Positions 9,353-58,516 of a DNA stretch of 64,000 bases are shown in pieces. The stretch is from Microthyrium microscopicum (Eukaryota > Ascomycota > Dothideomycetes > Microthyriales > Microthyriaceae). Under the pieces are notes generated by a model. The model was given only the letters and a program-made list of their open reading frames with translations. It made no database searches and had not been told where the DNA came from. The stretch's first letter is position 1. The number at the start of each line of letters is the position of its first letter. The stretch is taken from positions 1,104,713 through 1,168,712 of the forward strand of contig MU004239.1 of assembly GCA_010405405.1 (NCBI GenBank), in the 5' to 3' direction. The position numbers and the translations under genes are program-made.

Positions 9353-11049
9353 TTGCGGTGGTTGATATCAACTCATGTGGGCTTGTGGTGAAAAGTGTTT
9401 TTCTTGTCTTTTGCATGGGCGGTGTCTTTTGGCGCGTTTCGTTATGGAAAACGGGAATAGGGATTGGATACTATATAGACTTGATGATCGAACAACTACT
9501 ACTTAGAAGGATGAATGCTACGCTAGACTTTTACTGTTTTGTATGAATATCAATCGGCTCTTCTGGTAGCTGACGTGCTCTCAGTTACTATCAGCCGGAC
9601 AACTCATATCATTCGTTATTAGCGGCGGTTTGATCGTGCGTATGGTACAGGTACCTAGGTACGCTGTAAACGGGTTGACAGTACAGACATTAGGTTATAG
9701 ATGCACGTATACCTGGCCAACGGCATGGCAACATAAATGGCGTACTCCATCGACTCTGATGGCGCCCAGACACTAAGTGCTTCATTTGCGTTAATGGGTG
9801 TTCGGATTGGGAATATTTATTAGTTAAGATGGGATTTAAATCACCTTTTGGCTGGCAGCGTTGGTGGTAGCCATCAGAGTTGATAGAAGTACGCGATTTA
9901 TTTTGCCATGCCGTTGCTAGTCATCACCTTCAATGCTTGCGAGTCACTGCCAAGTTGATACCTACGGAGGATACCCATTAAGTCATCAGTGGAGTATCAA
10001 AACTCGGTTTTTCGAGCTATCTACCTAAGGTAGGGTGTAAAAAAAAGATACGACTCGGGCCAATGTCGCTGGCCAGCGAATCTCACTTGACTGCTTTTCC
10101 TTTGACCGTCGATATTCTCCGAGTATAAATGAAAGTCCTCAAATATACACCGGTGTATAACCACTTTCGTGAACAAGAACATCCAATAACTCCGCGAGTG
10201 ACATGACCCTTTGAACAATGAGAGATCAGGTCCGATAGTTGTATGGCGAGAAGCATTTCAGGCGTCATAGATCGACAGGTAAGCGGTTGGAGACTATGTT
10301 CGATCAGCTTTAATCCAGAATAATGAACAGAGAAAAAGACGCTTTATATTTGTTAGAGTTTAGCTGTCATCAGATTTAGCGTATCACACACATATTAGAT
10401 GCTATGATTCAAGGCAAGAGTTTCTAGACGCCAAACCATCTGTTTCGTGCCGTACTCACACAGGGACATGATTGCTATCTTATTGCCCATTCTAAAGTTG
10501 GAGTTTGATTTTCTGCTCTGTTTATGCTAGGATGAGTTGCTCACAGTCTCTTACAAAAGTGGCTGAATAATGTAGGTACCTTACCGAGAACAACTACCAC
10601 CATACAGCGGTCAAGAACCTAATGAGATGGCAACATCAACGAAGTGACAATCATCGACATCAATCGTAACGCGAATTATCTTGAACCATGCTCCAAGCAC
10701 GTGCTTTTTCCCATGTCTCACTCCAGAGTCTCGAGTTCTTGACTTTTAGAGGCACGGTCATTCTGCTATTGGTAAGCAAAAGCCATACGGTAACCCCGAT
10801 TTAGTTAGCAATTTAACGTCCGCCGAAATCCGAGCAAGCCGAGCCTGAAGATCTGCTCTTTTCTGAAAGAACCATTCATGTATGACACGGTGCAAGGAGT
10901 GCATAGCGCAAGATCATGACTAATTCTGAATGCTCAACATGCTGATGCTTGAACAGCTGCTCGTGTTACTGGAAGTTTTGATGCGTCTGTCACCACAATC
11001 ACCCTGAAGGACTGAAGCGCGTACAGAAGGACTGAAGCGCATACAAAGA
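9353..11049. other. Gene-free stretch holding a MITE
   Basis: About 1.7 kb without a convincing gene. It holds the 3' flank of eEF3, the MITE at 9718-9916, and the upstream region of the Zn2Cys6 gene. A short direct repeat (GAAGGACTGAAGCGC, twice, ending just before 11042) lies within 50 bp of that gene's start codon. Confidence 0.5.
9718..9916. mobile_element. MITE with about 48-bp terminal inverted repeats
   Basis: A 199-bp element without coding capacity. The left end starts CAACGGCATGGCA and the right end is its complement, TGCCATGCCGTTG. Read inward, the two ends stay alignable for about 48 bp (..ATAAAT.GCGTACT..ATC.ACTCTGATGGC), with roughly 85% identity by eye. The centre is A/T-rich and unrelated. 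This is the structure of a non-autonomous DNA transposon. A clear target-site duplication could not be read, so the superfamily is unassigned and the outer ends may be a few bases off. Partial relatives lie at 14657-14737, 55150-55230 and possibly 57670-57865. Confidence 0.75.
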
Positions 11050-14000
11050 ATGGAACGATCGCGAGATAACGACGCTAACTCGACGAGTCCGGAACCCGGT
11101 AGACCAAGGAAACTCCGAAAAGGCACTCGAAGCTGCTGGGATTGTAAAAAGCGAAAGGTTAAATGCACTTTTGAATCGTTTACAGATACAGTATGCATTT
11201 CGTGCAAGAGACGTGGAGCACAATGTATTAGCCAAGAGCACCCAGAGGAAGATTATCGAGTCGCTGAAGACAGTCGAGGTAAGAATTCGCTGTTTCTTGA
11301 CTTGGAACCAAAAAAGTCGTATTTCCCATCTTATTCGAAGGCTGCCAAAGAATGCGATGGGTGGGTTACGGTTTTGCCACGAAAAGTCAGGATGGTCTTC
11401 CGCTACATTTCTTGACGATATCCGATGAAACCAAAAATTCACATCTCTGCCATCGCATTGGATGGCTCCCATCAGATGCGATAGGAATTTCAACGATATC
11501 ATCCAAAGAGGTTGATGGTCTTTTCGAAGCGGGTCAGCTCCAATCTTGACCTTGTACTGACCATCTTCAGGCGGCCAAGTACTTGAGCGCGTGGCGAGAG
11601 TTGAATCGCTGTTAGAGAGTCTGGTAACAAAACTCGACCAACATGTCAAGTATACTGGGAACTCGAATGGATTGGAGATACCGAAGTCTGAGGGAACCGT
11701 ATCCTTGTATGATACTCGATCAAAAGACTCCATAGTGCCCTCTGTATGTGGTCCTCTTCCATGCATGCATCGTAGCTCAATTCCTAACGTTCTGTCTATA
11801 GAAACGACCCCTCCAACAAAATAAGGAGCTTAAGGTCTGTGAGCTCAAAGTCTGCGAGCAGATGCCCACCCCTGAATCTTCTATTGCAACACCAGGAATT
11901 TCGACCTCTGGAGATTTTGAATATATGAAGGTAAGGTTTCCCCTGTGGCATCACATTTCTGATCTCAAACGATGGAATCCAAAATCACAAGATCTCCCAT
12001 CGCACTCGATGCCTACCACGCAATGCGTTTCTGTATGAGTGCTATGGCTCCATCGAATGCGATGCGTGTTCCACGTTTCTGTGAAGGAAATATCGAATGG
12101 CCTGTCCAAGGCGTGTTCGTTTTAATCGCAATCTTATACTAATACATCTCAGTTATCACAAACCCTACTTGCAGCATTCCCGTCACAAAATGATATCGAC
12201 ATTCTTTGCAAGTCGGATTATCAAGCGACTTATTACTTTCACAAAATAATGACTAATGCGGACCATGGTCTCGATCACGAGGCATACAACTTCGTCGACG
12301 AGCTAGCTCAGATACCAAGTCCTTCCACACATCCAGTTATGATTGCTAAACGCATGCTGATATTTGCATCGTTCTTACAATATTTTCCACCTCACACGGT
12401 AGCAGAGCTCAGCGAACCGGCCTCAATAGTTATCAAACGACTGACTGATGCCGCTATTCAATTGGTGACCACGAATGACGATTTGGTCGACTGTATGGAG
12501 GGTTTGGAATGTATCGTTTTGGAAGCATGTTTCCAAGCCAATGCTGGCAACCTTCGGCGATCTTGGTATGCTCTGAGGCGAGCGATGTTAACAGCTCAAA
12601 TCATGAAGCTGGATAAAGAAAATCAATCGCCGAGGAGGATCGATCCGAGAACCACGGTTGATCCTAAGTTTATGTGGCTTCGTCTGGTAATCATTGATCG
12701 ATTTCTCAGCCTTATGCTTGGTCTTGCCGAAGGAAACCCGGGCAAGCTTTCATACGAAAATCTCAGCGCTGCAGATCCAAGGACACAACTGGAGTTCATG
12801 CAGGCTGAAATCATTGGCCATCTGATCAGGCGAAATGCAACTGATCCATTGGCGCAAGATGTCCGCACGACACAAGACCTCGATGCGCAGCTACTACGTG
12901 TAGCGAAAAGCATGCCTGAGGAGTTTTGGCATCCCCCAAACTTTTCTATCCTGGAAATGAATTCTCAAGATGACTTTTCGGAGACGAGGCGTCTTGGCTA
13001 TCAGCTTCATCATTTCAATCTTGTTCATTTGCTTCACCTGCCGTACTTGCTTAGTAGCAATGGCCACAGCTATGACAAATACGCAAAATTTACGTGTATC
13101 AACGCGAGCCGCGAAATTCTTAGCCGATTTGTTGACTTTCGAAACTTTCACAAGTTCACGACCTGCTGCCGGACCGGCGATTTATTTGCTTGTAAGATAT
13201 TTTCCAGTTTTAAACCCCATTTCTATACTCCGTCTGCTGGAATCAAAGACTTCTATATATATAGTATCTCCCATCGCATTTGATGGCCACCATCGAATTT
13301 GTTCCTGCTCGAGTGCTATGGCGCCCATCGCATTCGCTGGCTACCATCAAGTGCGCTTCGGATCGAATGCGTTTCGGATCAAGTGCTATGGTTTCCAATC
13401 AGCCCTTGATAAAACTCTTCTATAGTCTTACGCTAACAATTTTTAGTAATGGCAGGAATCACAATTCTCATCTCTCACATAGATGGACATCGAAATCCCA
13501 ATCCCACGGAAAATCTATTAGCGCATCAACGACTGAGCGATCGTGCTATAGTAGAGCATGTGGTTGCAAACATGAACGAAGTCGCCATGAACTCCGACGA
13601 CAAGCTCTTAGGCAGGAACGCGGATATCTTGAAAGGCTTGCTCAAATGCGAAAGAGCAGCCGTGGATGACGACTCGTATACAGCCAGTTCTGCTCTTTGT
13701 TGTTTGGAGCAAGAATTCAATGCACTCCAGACTCCGATATCTTACTTTGGAATGGCCAAAGTCCCACTACATGTGGACAATATCCCACTTCCAGTCAATA
13801 CTTCGAACGATGTCTTTTCATTTGCTGGTCCACGACAGCCCTCCAGCAATGGCTTACTCCCTATGCAATCACAGCTCAGTTATCTTCCAGCAGATCAGCA
13901 AACACTGCATCCGAGTCTAACAGATACCATGCAAGACCCAATGTTTCAAGGTGTCGATGCTATGTTTTTTGACGGCGTGACGCGGGCTGGATGGCTCTGA
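11050..14000 (+). CDS. Zn2Cys6 transcription factor with fungal TF domain
   Basis: Likely a nuclear DNA-binding regulator; targets unknown. Exons are 11050-11278, 11571-11743, 11802-11930, 12153-13191 and 13447-14000, joining in frame to 707 residues. The zinc cluster has the spacing C-x2-C-x6-C-x9-C-x2-C-x6-C at residues 29-59, with a basic lead-in (RPRKLRKGTRS). A coiled-coil-like linker follows (ERVARVESLLESLVTKLDQH). The middle part (LLAAFPSQNDIDIL.., then LEACFQANAGNLRRSWYALRRA) fits the fungal-specific transcription factor domain, and the tail is disordered. Three of four introns are 222-292 bp, far above the local norm, and two or three carry a shared repeat (see separate entries). It lies upstream of a transporter and an O-methyltransferase, but a regulatory link is only a guess. 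Family is firm; splice sites are inferred from donors, branch sites and frame. Confidence 0.85.
11279..11570 (+). repeat. Oversized intron 1 of Zn2Cys6 gene, introner-like
   Basis: 292-bp intron. It contains two palindromic units: one at about 11328-11358 (CCCATC..ATTC / GAAT..GATGGG) and one at 11449-11482 (GCCATCGCATTGGATGG with CCCATCAGATGCGAT). The second unit, in sense orientation, matches GCCATCGCACTCGATGG in the intron of the minus-strand gene at 14893-15020 at most positions. It is more diverged than introns 3 and 4. Confidence 0.5.
11931..12152 (+). repeat. Oversized intron 3 of Zn2Cys6 gene, introner-like
   Basis: 222-bp intron with the donor GTAAGG and acceptor ATCTCAG. The sense strand carries ATCTCCCATCGCACTCGATG at about 11993-12012, then GAGTGCTATGGC and CCATCGAATGCGATG at 12037-12064. 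The two CATCGCA-type segments are inverted copies of each other. The same order of blocks (ATCTCCCATCGCA.., ACCA, GAGTGCTATGGC, CCATCG) occurs in intron 4 of this gene, so the two introns look like copies of one element. Confidence 0.65.
13192..13446 (+). repeat. Oversized intron 4 of Zn2Cys6 gene, introner-like
   Basis: 255-bp intron. Its sense strand holds ATCTCCCATCGCATTTGATG near 13266, an inverted partner CCATCGAATTTG, then the block at 13308-13340 that starts CTCGAGTGCTATGGCG. That 33-base block is identical at 28 positions to the reverse complement of 14957-14989, which lies in the intron of the neighbouring minus-strand gene. Both are in the sense orientation of their own transcripts. 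Confidence 0.7.
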
Positions 14001-14159
14001 GAATAGCATAGGGAATGTCAAAATACTGTCATCAAAGCAATCAACTTAGGTAGTCGTTGGTGGGGGGTATGTTGAGATCAATAGCCAAGTTCGCAAGGCA
14101 TCGTCTGCCTCGAGGTTTGGCGGAGCCATCATGATCTTTGTTGTATGCACCTTCCCTTC

Positions 14160-14620
14160 TCGGTGGTTGTTCCTGCTATGTTTCTGTTGTCGGTTTCAGC
14201 CTAACTGGCAGTTGCTCCCAGTACGAGACGAAGTCACGATCAGACAATGGAGTCAATGTCCCACCGCACACTACCGGCCTCTTCAAACTTCCTCTTCATC
14301 TCCTCTATCTCGCTTCCCTTCGCCTCATGAGTCAACTTTATCTGGTTCAGTCAATTCTAGATAACGCTGAAATGCTGAAATTCGTTCCTGGACGAGAGCT
14401 CGAACAGGGTGACCTGCGGAAACTCTTCGACGAGCTTGCAAGCAGCAAAACCATTTCAAATCCGCAGTGCCGGTATCTCGCCCTACAATACGAATTGATA
14501 TACTGCGATTGTAACGTTTCCGCTGGACATGAACACCAAGCACAACGGCATTGCAAGTGTCGCAAGGTATCACATCCTCAAAGTCTTAACTCATTACTCG
14601 ACTTAAAGTTGTTGTAAAGT
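14160..14620 (+). pseudogene. Chimeric gene-fragment pseudogene
   Basis: The segment around 14363-14440 is a diverged copy of the start of the gene at 15870: it would encode MLKFVPGRELEQGDLRKLFD against MLKIVPGQEFEEGDPRKLFD, and the DNA is about 85% identical by eye. Similarity also appears upstream (14160-14200 against 15620-15660), so promoter sequence was copied too. After the LFDEL codons the match stops. The end of the segment (14573-14617) instead encodes SHPQSLNSLLDLKLL, which resembles the last residues SHPQSLDSLLELELA of the O-methyltransferase at 20622-22026. It therefore looks like a mosaic of two gene fragments. A MITE terminal fragment begins 37 bp downstream. It is unlikely to make a functional protein. 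Confidence 0.6.
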
Positions 14621-14656
14621 TCTATGGTACAAAATCTGGAAGGTGCTAGGTAGTCA

Positions 14657-14737
14657 CTAACGGCATGTCAAAATAAATGGCGTGCTCCCATCAACTCTGA
14701 TGGGTACCACCAGCGCTGCTAACCAAAAGCTGCTTAA
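14657..14737 (-). mobile_element. MITE terminal fragment overlapping a coding end
   Basis: This stretch aligns for about 80 bp with the right end of the MITE at 9718-9916 (reverse complement of 9842-9916), including AACGGCATG.CAAAATAAAT, ATCAACTCTGATGG and CCAAAAG; by eye about 85% of positions agree. Only one end of the element is present. The last codons and the stop codon of the minus-strand gene ending at 14691 fall inside it. Confidence 0.7.
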
Positions 14738-15421
14738 ATTCCGCTCGTTTCCACACGTCCTCATCTCCTGGATCATAGTTCACTTGGACTTCTCTCTTAA
14801 CGATTCCGTCTTGAGGAAGATAGAACTTTCGTCGAGCTGGGAGTTCGCTGTTTATCAATTCTCGCATGAGGACGGCAGGTTCTTTAAGAGGCCTATGTAA
14901 GTATTAGTGAGTGAAATGGCTACAATCGACACCTTGACTGAATAAACGGCAGCCTCCCATCGAGTGCGATGGCCGCTATGGCACTCGAGGGGAGGATGGG
15001 CAGACGGGCAGAGAACTTACGTTGGCTCGACCACCTTGATGACGCTGATTTGCTCGCGAAGAGATCGCCATTTCTCCGTGAAAACGTTCTTGGGATCTTT
15101 TTGCGGTAACTCTTCCAGCGTGTGGTCTTTTGAAACTACTGCTGGTGTCTGACGCGGTCTCGCTGCCGCGACTTTTGGCTTCGATTTCTTTTGCTTTTTG
15201 GCAACAGGCATATCCTTTTTCTTTGCTGTGGACTTTTTGCGCTTGCCACTAGGAGCATCAGACTCGCAGGACGAAGCAGAAGCAGATTTCTGGGTGTCAT
15301 CATCCTGGGCATCAGAAACTGCATCGTACTCATCGTCGCTTTCCTGCGCAGGGTTCTTTTTCGTTGCGGATCTAGTCTTTCTCCCGGCGGTCGCGGCGGT
15401 AGCCGCCTTTTTCGGCACCAT
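14691..15421 (-). CDS. Small basic nuclear-type protein, unknown function
   Basis: Not recognised as a named family. Two exons, 15421-15021 and 14892-14691, join in frame to 200 residues. The first 110 residues are low complexity: alternating Lys/Arg-rich (KKAATAATAGRKTRSATKK, GKRKKSTAKKKDMPVAKKQK) and Ser/Asp-rich stretches, which resemble nuclear localisation signals and a disordered chromatin-associated protein. The second half is more structured (FTEKWRSLREQISVIKVVEP..., RRKFYLPQDGIVKREVQVNY). The 128-bp intron (14893-15020) carries an introner-like block. The final 14 or so residues and the TGA stop lie within a MITE fragment, so the original C-terminus was probably different. It is divergent from the gene at 15870, with 448 bp between start codons. 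Confidence 0.6.
14893..15020 (-). repeat. Introner-like intron in minus-strand gene
   Basis: 128-bp intron with donor GTAAGT, branch CTAAT and acceptor ACATAG. In transcript orientation, positions 14989-14957 read CTCGAGTGCCATAGCGGCCA followed by TCGCACTCGATGG. This matches 28 of 33 bases of 13308-13340 in intron 4 of the Zn2Cys6 gene, which is on the opposite genomic strand but also in sense orientation. The two halves of the block form an imperfect palindrome. Confidence 0.7.
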
Positions 15422-15869
15422 GGTCGACTTTGATGGCAATGCGGATAGCTATGAGTGGAGGTTGAGAACTGAGGAATATGAAGATGTCGATGATAGAGTT
15501 GGAGAATTTTGCAAGTGATGGTTGTGGATTTTTGTGTGGGAGTGGCAGGCAAGGCATCATCCAGTCTGCCTCGCAAGATATGGCAGGAGCCACCGTTTGT
15601 TTTTTGAATGCGCCTACCTGTCTTGGTGGTTGCTTCCCAACTTGTTTTTGTTAGGTGTCAGGAAAGGCAAGCAAGCACTGAGCAGGCAGTCGCGACCAAA
15701 CCAAGGTGAAGTCGCGACCAGAGTTATTTTGGCATTGTGCCCACCACCCGGGTTCTCCATCTTCTTCACAACTTACTCTATACTTCATCATCATCCACCT
15801 CCCTTGAACCATATAGCCGTTGGCTCCATCACCATTTTGTTAGCTCTAACAATTTCGGATAACGTTGAA

Positions 15870-16845
15870 ATGCTGAAAATTGTTCCTGGACAAGAGTTTG
15901 AAGAGGGTGACCCGCGGAAACTCTTCGATGAGTTGTTGCTCGCAGCCTATTACCACAACGAGCATTCGAACTTCGATGCGGCGATTATGCAAGTTCAAGC
16001 AAACTTGCAAGTTCCTGGTCTTTCGACTTGGTATAAATGCGCAAATATGATCATCGGGCTCGACTCAAAGGCTGCCTGGGATGAGGAAGCAGACTATTGG
16101 TACCACGCGCTACGCGGCGCCATCGCGCGTTTCGATGTTGAGATCAAGGGAAAGCCTGAATTCACTGTGCTTCTTGATGATCTGCGCGATTGCTTGGATG
16201 ATCTCACTAAACAACGTGAAGAAGAGGGCGCTGACCAGCCTTGAATTCAAGACCCGTCGTTCGATGAAGCGTTGGCGCAGGTAAGCATTTGCCAATGACA
16301 TCTTTTCTCTATCTGGATTGACACCGCTTCAGCAAGCCTACGAGGATGAGAAGACATCGTGGGATCGCGAGGAGATGGCAGTACTTAATGAGGAGTTCGC
16401 AGAACGTCAACGCGAAAAGGCTGGTGCCAAAGCTGCTAGAACTGATCTCACCGAAGAGGAGAAGAATTATAAACCCAAGTCGCTGGCCGAGAGACTGGGC
16501 GGAAGTGCTGTGAGCGAGGGCCACAAGCCTTTCAAATCTCCGATGAAGTCCAAACCCGATCTTGACCCTCCGCCAAAATCCCCCCTCCCGACGCGACTCG
16601 TTAGCAACAAGAACGCCGTACCCAAGAGTCCCAAAACAATTGGACGTACCTCAAAGTTCGAAACCATAGATACATTGCCTGCCATCTATGACACAAAGCC
16701 CCGCAAAGGTCGCCGAGAGTTGAAGAAGAAGAAAGGCGATGCTATCGATATTCGCGAGATGTGGCACAATGATGAGTCTGGCGAGAAGGGCAAGAAGGAT
16801 GACGAGACGAGTGCGGATAGCGAGGGGACTGCAGAAGACCGGTGA
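15870..16845 (+). CDS. Unknown protein, interrupted by an in-frame TGA
   Basis: Not recognised. The first part, 124 residues from MLKIVPGQEFEEGDPRKLFD, ends at an in-frame TGA at 16242-16244. The same frame continues through DPSFDEALAQ, crosses a good 52-bp intron (16281-16332, GTAAGC..TTCAG) and reads on for 170 residues to 16845: a highly charged stretch (REEMAVLNEEFAERQREKAG), then a disordered Lys/Pro-rich tail. Frame continuity across the TGA and the clean intron suggest one original gene of about 307 codons. Explanations are a nonsense mutation, a sequencing error, or a very short 36-nt intron at 16216-16251 that would remove the TGA and has a GCTGAC-like branch site; 36 nt is below the usual minimum. 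A copy of its 5' end sits at 14.2-14.4 kb. Confidence 0.5.
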
Positions 16846-50449: not shown

Positions 50450-53400
50450 ATGGACGACGCCGAGCCTATGGATCTCGCCATGAGCTCCATTCTCCCTCCT
50501 CAAAACCCCACGTACGTCAGCTCGCCCCAAACCCCGTCTACTCTCATCCAGTACGATATCTACCAGCTGCTATACTCAGAATCGAATGCTTCATATATCA
50601 TAGTATGCGATGATCGGATGACTTTCTTACGCATTCTATTGGAAATGAAGCTTTCGACAGCGGAGAGTAGTAGCTGTTAGATGTCGTTCTGGATTGGAGC
50701 AAACCAGTTGCGCTATTCTGAAAGTTGGAGCTCCCAAAGCTGATCATTCCTTAGTACTACCACCGATCAACCTACACAGACTACCCCCCCTCCAGGTAAC
50801 CAGCTTCTATATCACAATATTGCCTGTGAAAGGCTAGCTAACATCATTGTAGCATCGAATCAACATGACGACGATTGGGTGGACGATGATGCTATGGACA
50901 CCACGCCCGACGGATCTCCAGGTCCCGCTCCCCAAGAACACAGCACCTCCCCTTCATCCCCTCCAGCACAAGCCCCAGCAGAAATACAAACAAATGGCCA
51001 AGCCACACAGCCTGTAGCTTCGCAAGATGGATCAACACCAAGTTCTGGCGAAAATGCTGACGAGGGTGAAGATGCGACCTCAAGTGAAGACGAAGATTAC
51101 GATGATGAATATGATGAAGAATGGCATGAGATTACCGAAGACATGTCCGTTCCTACTGAGCAGGAACTAAAAGAGCTCAAGGACGAGATCAGTGCCAAAG
51201 ATGATCCGCATTTCATGAAACTGCTCACTCAGAGCCTCGACGATCCCCAAGTTCAGCCGGGAGAGTTTGGCAAGATTGACTGGTTGATAGACCGATACAA
51301 TGGAACGCGGGAGAACCCCAACAAGGAGCTTTTAATGAGGTCTCCCGTGACACGAGTTGGAGGCTATGACTGGCAGCTCAAACTCTACCCTAGGGGTAAT
51401 GACACTGAATATCTTAGCGTCTACGTCGAGTGCGTCAGTGTCTCCAATAAAGAGAAAATGAAGGAGAAGGAGAAGGAAAAGGAAAAGACCGGCGCCAAAT
51501 CCAAGTCGAGACGAGGCTCCAAAAAAGAAACTCACCCAAAGACACAAATATCGATACCAGCTGTGACCAATCAGCACACTCCTCTACCTCTCCTGGATCC
51601 GAAACCCATCCCAAAACGACCCAGCATTGCAGCATCTGTGATTGTAGTAGTGTACAATCCAGACGAGCCTCGAGTACACCACCAACGATCGTGCCTACAT
51701 AGATTCTGCCCCAACTCATCAGATTGGGGCTGGACGAGATTTTATGGCCCCTACTATGAGATAGGGACTCGTCAGCGTGGACAGCGCACTGCTCTCTTGA
51801 GAGGTGACAAGTTGGCGGTGACTGGATTCATTCAGTTGATAGAAGATGAAACCGATGGCAAATACGAACATCAAAGCAGAGAAAATCCATGGGACTCGTT
51901 TTCAATGTGTGGTCTACAGAGCATGATCAGTGAGAGGTTGCCGCAGTCCACGGTACCGGCTCTATCTGCCTGGTTGTTGGCCAAACCTTTCCGAGAATTC
52001 CTTTACCGGACTCCGACGCCGGATCCAGACTATGACCATCATGGAAAACCAATGCCCATGGTTAGTGGTTTGAAACTACTTTTGGCCCAGCTACGAACCC
52101 CTGTGCCTATTGAGCCAGAGAGCAATTACCGTACTCCCGTGGATATGGATCCAATTCGTGTTGCACTTGAATGGTATGGGATCGAAGAAATTCTTCTCAA
52201 ATGCGATGTAATCGAACTTTGGGAGGTAATACGAGCACAATTGAAGGAAGAACTCAAAGACACGCCGTTTGAAAAGGAGCTCGACTTGCTCTTTGGCACG
52301 GAGAGAAGTCGGACAACTGACAAGGCCCACTATTCTGTTCTCGTCAAGGACGCTGGTACGATGCAAAATGCAATTGATCAGTCCCCCGATCTCATCCCGG
52401 AAGACTGCGAACCTCCTCGAATTTTGCACATTGAACTCAACCGTCAACACTTCAACGAAAAGACTCGCACCTGGCAAAAATTGTCTGACAAAGTCACTCT
52501 CGATGATCATGTTGACGTCAATGGCCAAAGCTACACCCTTTATGGTTTCATTACCCACGATCGTGACCTCCAATCATGTCTCTTTTCCACAATCGTTCGA
52601 CCAAATGGTCCAGGCACTGGTTGGTATCAATACAATGACCGAAAGAACTTGTATGACACTAGAGAAGAGCGTCTAGTGCAGCGTCTTACAAACAAGGAGG
52701 CCATTGAAGCTCACGAAGGCGGCAAACCAAAGAAAACTGACGATCCAGAACCCAACGTTGCTTACATTGCCATTTACTTCGCCGATTTCCTTGGTGAAGA
52801 CGCTTTCAATTCGAGTGAACCGCACTGGTAAGATTTCATGATCCGAATCAGTTCATGATCTGTCATTGATCCTACGCTGACAATTTTTAGGGATCCCGCT
52901 TGGATATCGCACTACCTCCCAACCGCATATGATTCTGAGACTGGTAGTCCCATACTCACAGCCGCTAAGGAGGCAGAGCTTGATAAAATCCAAGCACCAA
53001 TAAAATTGGAGGTCCTAGCCATCCATTCTAAGGCATTCCTGCGATGGCAAGGGCCTGGCATAATAGACATCTATGACGACGGACCGAACAACAAAGCGGA
53101 CATGATCAAATTCATGGTTGATGAGACCGCAAGCGCCACTGATGTCCGTGACAAAATCGCCAAACACGTCCCAGATATCAAAGACGCACGACAGGTCAAA
53201 CTCTGGCCCTTTGATCCACGCGATGGTGTCCAATTCTCACCTGTTCTGGCTCGAGATGATACTTCCAGCAAACACCCCTTTGGAATCATAAACCCTCTCA
53301 CACGCGATCCATCCCAGAAGTCAAGTCAGCGATGGGTATGGTATACTCTTTTGGATGATTCGCAATTGGAAACTATGAAAAAAGAAGAGGAAGATAGGAA

Positions 53401-54835: not shown

Positions 54836-55659
54836 GATGGCGCGGGCTGACAGGTTGAACTGGGTGAGACTGAAGATATTGTTAGGTAGGAAACACGAAA
54901 GTAGATTGCGTACGGGTTTTGCTATGATCTTGGGAAATTCCTTTTAGTTTGGTGTTTTGAGCGTTGATGGGGGTATACCCTTGTTGAAAGTTGTTGTGTT
55001 TTCTTCCTACTGTTTGGTATTGGTAGATAGGATGAATTTATATATGATATTTTTCCATCAAATAAGATGGCTTCCACTAACCTCCTTCGGATCACTCACT
55101 GGCTGAGATCTTGCGATTTACTTTCTTACTAGTTGATTTCACACATGAAATGAGATAAGCCCACCTTTTGCTTAAGAGCGTTGATGGCAGTCATCAGAGT
55201 TGACAAGTGGATGAAGAAGGCGCGTTGATCAGATGAAGATGTACCTACATATATGAGGCTCTGCTTGAGGCGCCAAGGCGAGATTGTCACCCTAGCGCCT
55301 TGCTTCCTTAGGCGCTAATACTCCAACTTCACGGCTAGACCTCATCCACTGAGACGACGGCCTCTCACTACCCGATTAGCAGACAACCTTCTTTCATCTT
55401 CACCAACACTTATTCCCAAACTTTGGCTCTCTGCCTTTTGTTCTTCTAGCAATCGCTCACTTGATCTGCTTCTTGTTTTCTACCTCGACTCCCATCTCAC
55501 TAATTCACCCTTGAACTTGTCCACTCCTCCTCACTTACCGGCCTACCCACTTTATCGCCCAAAGTCTCACCTGTCATGCGCTACATCCACTTCTTGCCTG
55601 CTCAGCTTTATTCCCCCTCATAGTTTTCGGGGGTCAGAGAATACAGGCACCCGCTCACC
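54836..55659. other. Gene-free stretch with MITE fragment
   Basis: About 820 bp between tandem genes. It holds the MITE fragment at 55150-55230 and, from 55330 on, a C/T-rich promoter and leader for the SIZ gene. Confidence 0.45.
55150..55230 (+). mobile_element. Fragment of the 9.7-kb MITE family
   Basis: The reverse complement of this stretch contains CAACTCTGATG.CT.CC, then ATCAACGCT and GCAAAAGGTG, in the same order and spacing as the right end of the MITE at 9718-9916 (CAACTCTGATGGCTACC, ACCAACGCT, CCAAAAGGTG). About 45-50 bp align. Only one end is recognisable. Confidence 0.5.
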
Positions 55660-57643: not shown

Positions 57644-58516
57644 TGGCAAGCGCATAACAAAGATTGATTGGCGTTCTCTCATCAACTTTGCTGGCTCCTA
57701 CAAACGCTACTACATTAAAGTCCTATAACTATAATTGCATTCAACAGAGTTTGCCAGTCTTCACGCCGTTCGTGGCACTGAGCGCACTCCATACCAAAGC
57801 GTCTTCTGTGGGAGGCATCAAAGTCGATACCAGCGCAACTTCTATGAGAGCCATCAAAGTCGGCAGTGCACAGACCATATTCTAATACCCCCTTCTTCTT
57901 TTGTTGTTATCCACTTTTATCTACTAGCATGGCGTTTCTACTCACGGTTTCTTCTATGGGAAAGCATCATTTGCATGGGAAAAAAATCCACATAGCCCTG
58001 GAGTTGGACGGTCTGCTGTTTTTCTCTCTTTCCTCAAAGCCCACGAGACAATGGCACATTGGCTCAACAGACTTTTGCACTCCCTCATTTTCTTCTGTAA
58101 ACAGATAAAAGAGGTTTGTGTGTGCGTCTGAAAAGTGCGTTGAACGAGCAAGACGGGTAATTGATGTTGGGAGAGTATATGTATTTTAGAGTGTCTGGAA
58201 GGACATACGAAGGCCTTAATGACAGATATATATTACTTCATTGGCATTCTTTTTTTGGTGTTGCTTACTACTTGTTATTATAGGCAGCTTTGAGAACGGA
58301 GCGGTTGAAGGGTGGGGACGTTCAAAGTCGTAGGACAGTTCAGGATTCCACCATATCTTGCATTCAATCGATGAAAGAGCTTGCATACGGAACTGAACTT
58401 GCAAACGATATCTGGGAGGTCCAGAAACGGAGTCAAGCAGAGACGCTCTGGGAAGTACACTTGTCTGGGATCTGAACTACCGAGGAGATCGCTGCACAGC
58501 TTCATAAGGCTAATTC
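57644..58516. other. Gene-free stretch
   Basis: About 870 bp downstream of the SIZ gene. It holds the MITE-like relic at 57670-57865; the rest shows no gene. Confidence 0.4.
57670..57865. mobile_element. Possible degraded MITE of the same family
   Basis: The left part (CTCTCATCAACTTTGCTGGC, then TCCTACAAACGCTAC) matches the internal part of the MITE end at 14685-14720 (CTCCCATCAACTCTGATGGG, then TACCACCAGCGCTGC) at about three quarters of positions. The right part contains GAGAGCCATCAAAGTCGG and AGGCATCAAAGTCGATACCAGCGC-like sequence in inverted orientation. The span of about 195 bp equals the intact MITE. Decay is advanced, so this call is tentative. Confidence 0.35.

Follow-up and report, generated by a model that had tools for sequence, protein, structure and literature searches.

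Four introns of two neighbouring genes in the ascomycete Microthyrium microscopicum are best explained as old members of a dispersed family of introners (introner-like elements, ILEs) that was spread by transcription-linked, seamless copying; we put the probability of this reading at about 0.85. The two genes lie on opposite strands of a window of 64,000 nucleotides (positions 1104713-1168712 of contig MU004239.1), and further members were sought in the whole genome of 36.9 Mb on 20 contigs. In the features given below, R1 is a sequence-only profile built from 16 copies of the family, intron 3 included.

11050-14000, + strand: host gene 1, a fungal Zn2Cys6 regulator; start and stop placed by eye; Zn_clus (PF00172) found in the spliced first exons at E 1.6e-5
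11279-11570, + strand: intron 1, a two-module introner (modules 11295-11399 and 11404-11569; R1 E 4e-9 and 3.5e-16); spliced frame open for 271 + 251 nt
11744-11801, + strand: intron 2, an ordinary intron of 58 nt placed by eye; no R1 match
11931-12152, + strand: intron 3, a full-length introner; R1 positions 1-223 at E 1.7e-42 (as a member of R1's own alignment), matched independently by intron 4 and by genome copies
13192-13446, + strand: intron 4, an introner with an enlarged, repeated hairpin core; R1 E 3.5e-21, with genome matches; spliced frame open for 1066 + 551 nt
13308-13340, + strand: block of 33 bases, 28 of 33 identical to the reverse complement of 14957-14989
14691-15421, - strand: host gene 2, a lysine-rich protein; ends placed by eye; spliced frame open for 428 + 199 nt; no Pfam match
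14893-15020, - strand: intron of host gene 2, a short diverged introner; R1 match at 14923-14989, E 1.5e-4; score against intron 4 above every shuffle

All four introner-bearing introns begin with GT and end with AG, and the removal of each in silico left a joined frame free of stops over 129-1066 nt on the upstream side and over 199-1128 nt on the downstream side. Local alignment scores were compared with those of 1000 dinucleotide shuffles per pair. Introns 3 and 4, which an earlier sequence-only reading had considered to be built alike, scored 59 (shuffle maximum 31); the remaining scores were 41 for intron 4 and the intron of host gene 2 (maximum 31), 41 for introns 1 and 3 (30), 37 for introns 1 and 4 (29) and 30 for intron 3 and the intron of host gene 2 (25). 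These five pairs exceeded every shuffle, while the sixth, intron 1 with the intron of host gene 2, was weak, its score of 24 being equalled in 10 of 1000 shuffles. The sense score was higher than the antisense score in 6 of 6 pairs which, with the splice-site ends and the open frames, bears out the proposal that the copies are sense-oriented despite hosts on opposite strands. The agreement of the 33-base block at 28 positions was confirmed by recounting. Intron 1, previously taken for a weaker palindromic version of the element, consists instead of two family modules in tandem.

Searching the window with R1 at E ≤ 10 yielded 11 matches, of which 10 were inside the four introns. Four of those 10 were antisense because the introner core is nearly palindromic; orientation must therefore be taken from the intron ends. 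Only the interior of R1 (profile positions 106-180) is covered by the intron of host gene 2. The one match outside the four introns, at 50525-50629 (E 6e-4), overlaps a weak match to a miniature inverted-repeat transposable element (MITE) described below. The claim that these introns are longer than most held: background introns found by a coding test (n=16) had a median of 56 nt, the ten in the window measuring 48-71 nt.

The genome search suggested by the sequence-only reading retrieved the family with three of the introns. Parts of intron 4 gave 24 matches, parts of intron 3 gave 26 and the whole of intron 1 gave 14, counts that take in self matches as well as antisense matches due to the palindrome. 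Used as a whole-genome query, the intron of host gene 2 matched nothing besides itself. The family consensus is 223 nt long, running from GTAAGATTTCCCCGTG at its start to TACTAACAAATTCCAG at its end around a long hairpin core, with one plain donor and one plain acceptor by eye. As a query of the whole genome it gave at least 53 matches (40 scored of 145 candidates). The donor word GTAAGATTTCCCCGTG was present at 60 genome places with up to 2 mismatches, against 8 for the reversed control; 29 of these were recognised introners, 14 were fetched without recognition and 17 were not fetched. Within 64 merged stretches (234 kb) the profile made 121 non-overlapping matches at E 0.001, a number that is not a copy count because partial copies, single modules and cross-matches to the MITE or palindrome are included. 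Capture-recapture suggested 159 copies (5 shared places), and an estimate by hand that added two two-module introns found by both routes suggested 119, both figures being rough because 17 of the 60 donor places were not fetched.

In six places two modules are joined close to profile positions 180 and 22. When the two-module form was examined for a single origin, its second modules clustered (4 changes against a shuffled mean of 8.5, 0/500 as low) on weakly supported branches, and its first modules did not. Pairs of introners standing back to back with zero exon bases between them (AG|GTAAG) were seen at C13:775889-776224 and C4:97651-98068, and seven plus-strand profile matches lie within 2.9 kb at C3:1079000-1081885, several apparently in one transporter gene.

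The coding context of the copies points to predicted introns in sense orientation. Forty-one of the 121 matches span the full profile and were examined, the other 80 being excluded; 40 of the 41 have GT..AG ends. A stop-free joined flank of 240 nt resulted from removal in 28 of 41 cases in sense against 3 of 41 in antisense, and a codon score favoured sense in 34 of 41. A curated set of 49 introns, comprising the 40 GT..AG whole-profile copies, three donor-found introns and six composite or window introns, had both flanks open for at least 90 nt after removal in 40/49 cases in sense and 9/49 in antisense, or 45/49 and 16/49 at a threshold of 60 nt. The 40 frame-open introns are divided among the phases as 18, 13 and 9, and the curated introns measure 128-392 nt, against the background median of 56 nt. 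Ten of the 49 spliced peptides were picked for a likely domain and compared with Pfam, junctions being shifted by hand for trimmed peptides. A domain crosses the splice junction in nine (FAD_binding_4, AA_permease, MFS/UNC-93, ADH_zinc_N, kinase, Pyr_redox_2, adh_short, Acyl-CoA_dh_1 and MFS), adh_short by a few residues, and in the tenth it does not.

These hosts bear on whether the likeness could stem from duplication of genes or exons, or from a regulatory palindrome held in common. The palindrome CCATCGNANNNGATGG is certainly common, with 286 strand-wise genome places against 3 in the control, yet the likeness is collinear over about 223 nt, is bounded by the introns and joins genes of different Pfam families. 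The chance that either is the source is accordingly negligible, and the earlier rejection of gene duplication stands. As a separate observation, introners at C1:1883917 and C7:383565 lie about two codons apart by eye in two amino-acid permease genes, a possible parallel gain; the host at C7:383565 was recognised by eye and is presumed to be such a permease.

No target-site duplication was found when exon was compared with intron ends and flank with flank in 48 introns (k=2, 3, 4, 6 and 8; p 0.23-1.0 against shuffled pairings). The insertion sites have the form G|GY, with G at -1 in 43/48, G at +1 in 37/48 and C or T at +2 in 34/48; the same positions in the small sample of background introns (n=16) gave 8/16, 7/16 and 6/16. 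A full AG|GY preference was considered and rejected, as A at -2 is not enriched (20/48 against 8/16 in the background) and only G|GY holds. An AG/GY preference is ascribed to the ILEs of Dothideomycetes in PMC8469720, to which the G|GY sites of the present family are comparable.

The age of the family was assessed on 42 single-module copies. Pairwise identity was 84% for the best pair with a median of 64%, identity to the consensus had a median of 78.5% (63-88%), and 1147 transitions and 887 transversions were counted. The expectation of near-identical copies therefore failed, and recent activity is ruled out by the best pair. Active ILEs are described as 98-99% identical in excerpts of PMC4457414, where those of D. 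septosporum are much less alike, so that near-identity is typical and not required. Repeat-induced point mutation was also rejected, there being no excess of CpA. Two introns located through their donors, 85 and 90 nt long, retain the family ends and appear by eye to be shortened members, with weak profile matches (E 0.1 and 0.011). The introner family is old and its copies are at various stages of decay.

The best self-complementary alignment of the consensus is an inverted repeat at 45-153, a symmetry that is internal and not at the intron ends. The 83-nt core has a fold energy of -38.4 kcal/mol, and folding of whole introns gave a median z of -1.99, with 24 of 48 below -2. No known RNA family was matched in 10900-15500 up to E 1. 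Among 18 donor-selected copies, identity to the consensus was 81% in the core and 74 and 73% in the spacers, or 76% and 73 and 63% with gaps counted as differences. Outside the introners, the palindrome CCATCG..CGATGG occurs in clusters at C3:694800-699600, 714200-718600 and 736000-736900 and also at C1:1523300-1523600; it is likewise found in another hairpin element, part of which was apparently inserted in an intron at C1:1366431.

A hairpin transposon that inserted repeatedly into ordinary older introns would leave only the interior in common. The hairpin word does occur outside introners, some introns contain extra hairpin insertions, and the intron of host gene 2 fits only the profile interior, so that such insertion could hold for single partial copies. 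For full-length copies it is disfavoured by the end-to-end matches of the 41 whole-profile copies and by the conservation of the ends: identity to the consensus is 83-84% at positions 1-16 and 79-81% at 196-223, exceeding that of the spacers. As an account of the family it is very improbable.

The same genome carries a MITE family with terminal inverted repeats (TIRs), two members of which lie at or near the host genes.

9718-9916, + strand: MITE copy, inverted repeats resembling the introner core; TIRs of the family consensus identical at 50/52; 6-bp duplication decayed in this copy
14659-14751, - strand: partial MITE that overlaps host gene 2 at its 3' end; aligned to positions 120-212 of the MITE profile at E 1e-24

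The family of the element at 9718-9916 is that of a MITE in its TIRs, its duplication of fixed length, its short length and its many copies. It was found at a minimum of 40 places (40 scored of 106 candidate places), and TIR ends with up to 3 mismatches number 202 in the genome against 0 in the control. An alignment of 13 copies was made from the window copy and the 12 next-ranking of the 40, a sample that favours intact copies because it was drawn by rank. The consensus is 213 bp long; identity to it is 94.8-99.5% for 11 copies and 89% for the other two, one of which is the window copy. The 6-bp flank duplication agrees at 58 of 78 positions, against a shuffled mean of 22.9 and a maximum of 45 in 2000 shuffles, and is exact in 7 of 13 copies. 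Judged by these 13 copies, the MITE is of more recent date than the introners and transposes as DNA. Further partial or diverged matches lie in the window at 55160-55204 and 57652-57830. By eye, the partial MITE appears to provide, at 14691-14751, the last codons and stop of host gene 2, itself a predicted gene.

Against the MITE profile, 28 of 48 introners scored above 0, 21 above 5 and 8 above 10, where shuffled means were 0.45, 0 and 0. Such a likeness might have arisen by convergence on a simple palindrome, since CCATC..GATGG is present in both and shuffling of the palindromic box lowered the introners above 0 from 28 to 8.5 of 48; that remainder is nevertheless far above 0.45, and each of the 12 top-scoring matches is collinear and on the plus strand. 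In a comparison of the two consensus sequences, the observed score was equalled by 1 of 2000 shuffles under one scoring scheme and reached by none of 2000 under a second. Both halves of the MITE align with the introner from MITE position 12 onwards: the left half with introner positions 51-138 (63 identities in 86 aligned bases) and the reversed right half with positions 51-135 (61 in 80). The two alignments are not independent because the halves have a common TIR. Convergence thus seems doubtful, and the introner core and the MITE inverted repeats probably have a common origin, in either direction, as judged from these alignments.

That relationship raises the possibility that the introner itself moved as a DNA transposon, cut and pasted by a transposase and later removed by splicing. 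In favour of this, the core is similar to inverted repeats found in a MITE that bears TIRs and target-site duplications, and marks of this kind are attributed in excerpts of PMC9860276 to most introner families outside ascomycetes. The 48 introns, however, have no target duplication where the 13 MITE copies have a clear one of 6 bp, the inverted repeat is internal with none at the intron ends, and the match excludes the terminal 11 bases of the MITE. The transposase route is less likely because of this missing duplication, and we consider it improbable.

Under the favoured reading, new copies would arise through a transcription-linked, seamless process, most simply when an excised intron is inserted again by reverse splicing or is captured at a break. 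Splicing of the new copy would spare the host gene, and insertion would be nearly harmless. The MITE lineage probably supplied the hairpin or has it in common with the introners, and the structure may shield the excised RNA or label it for copying; stabilisation of excised RNA by a hairpin is proposed for symmetrical introns in excerpts of PMC8469720. We regard it as an even question whether the introner family derives from a DNA transposon in the sense that a palindrome like that of the MITE came to lie between splice signals, abandoned duplication-making transposition and then spread seamlessly in sense, while the sister MITE jumped as DNA until recently. If so, an ascomycete introner family, of a group reported without transposon marks, would gain a transposon relative within one genome. 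No ascomycete introner with a MITE relative was found in the literature searched on introners, intron gain and fungal MITEs.

Several results weigh against this account. Of the 43 places with the donor word that were fetched, 14 could not be recognised as introners. The MITE was picked after the word that it has in common with the introners had been noticed. Folding of alignments detected two-sided change in only 1/16 and 0/17 pairs, and with so few compensatory changes covariation gives the hairpin no support for a role as RNA. Among 15 incomplete or doubtful copies read by eye, at least five seem to have no coding flanks or usable splice sites (C1:880136, C6:746357-746730, C7:1451390, C3:863228 and C6:747174), and these non-genic copies are contrary to strict transcription-linked insertion unless they have decayed. 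The anticipated predominance of sense, intron-filling matches over intergenic ones consequently stood for most of the copies tested and failed for these. The family is mainly, not strictly, genic.

ILEs of Dothideomycetes were reportedly described by van der Burgt in 2012. The present family is like those of Collemare 2015 (PMC4457414, in excerpts), which are similar introns in unrelated genes with splice sites as their ends, structured, seamless and decaying towards regular introns. It occupies unrelated hosts up to both splice sites, in sense, with greater length, predicted structure and seamless insertion; near-identical copies are absent, and unlike in those ILEs the core is similar to a MITE that has TIRs and duplications. 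The interpretation as introner-like elements is upheld by the whole copies, most of which, where tested, occupy an intron entirely and in sense. The family is, as far as tested, an apparently new one of ILE type, likened to published families by their descriptions, and none of six family sequence words was met in the literature searched.

Sister stwintrons of Hypoxylaceae and Xylariaceae are likewise proliferating symmetrical introns, seamless and without target duplication, in excerpts of PMC8469720 and PMC12403724. They are described there as having inverted repeats at or close to their ends, a nested donor and insertion sites free of bias, whereas the present family has internal symmetry and biased sites. 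Introners derived from DNA transposons in algae and other aquatic eukaryotes, as excerpted from PMC9860276, also carry an inverted-repeat module like that of a transposon within an element that creates introns; the present family differs in its lack of target duplications and of terminal inverted repeats. It resembles MITEs in that its core is like the inverted repeats of one in the same genome, and differs from them in ends that are splice sites, in the absence of duplication and in copies that are mainly genic and in sense.

The family has a bearing on how introner families originate and spread in ascomycetes and on the source of new introns. Here an introner family and a MITE occur together in one genome, with a seemingly common inverted-repeat module and opposite insertion signatures (none against 6 bp). 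Their coexistence opens direct tests of which module is older, of whether one enzyme serves both and of whether it is the hairpin that allows an intron to be copied.

No match to 5.8S rRNA was obtained in the whole assembly, from which ribosomal DNA is probably absent. A direct repeat of 83 nt, 86% identical, lies at 14352-14434 and 15850-15932 and forms the starts of two short open reading frames flanking host gene 2.

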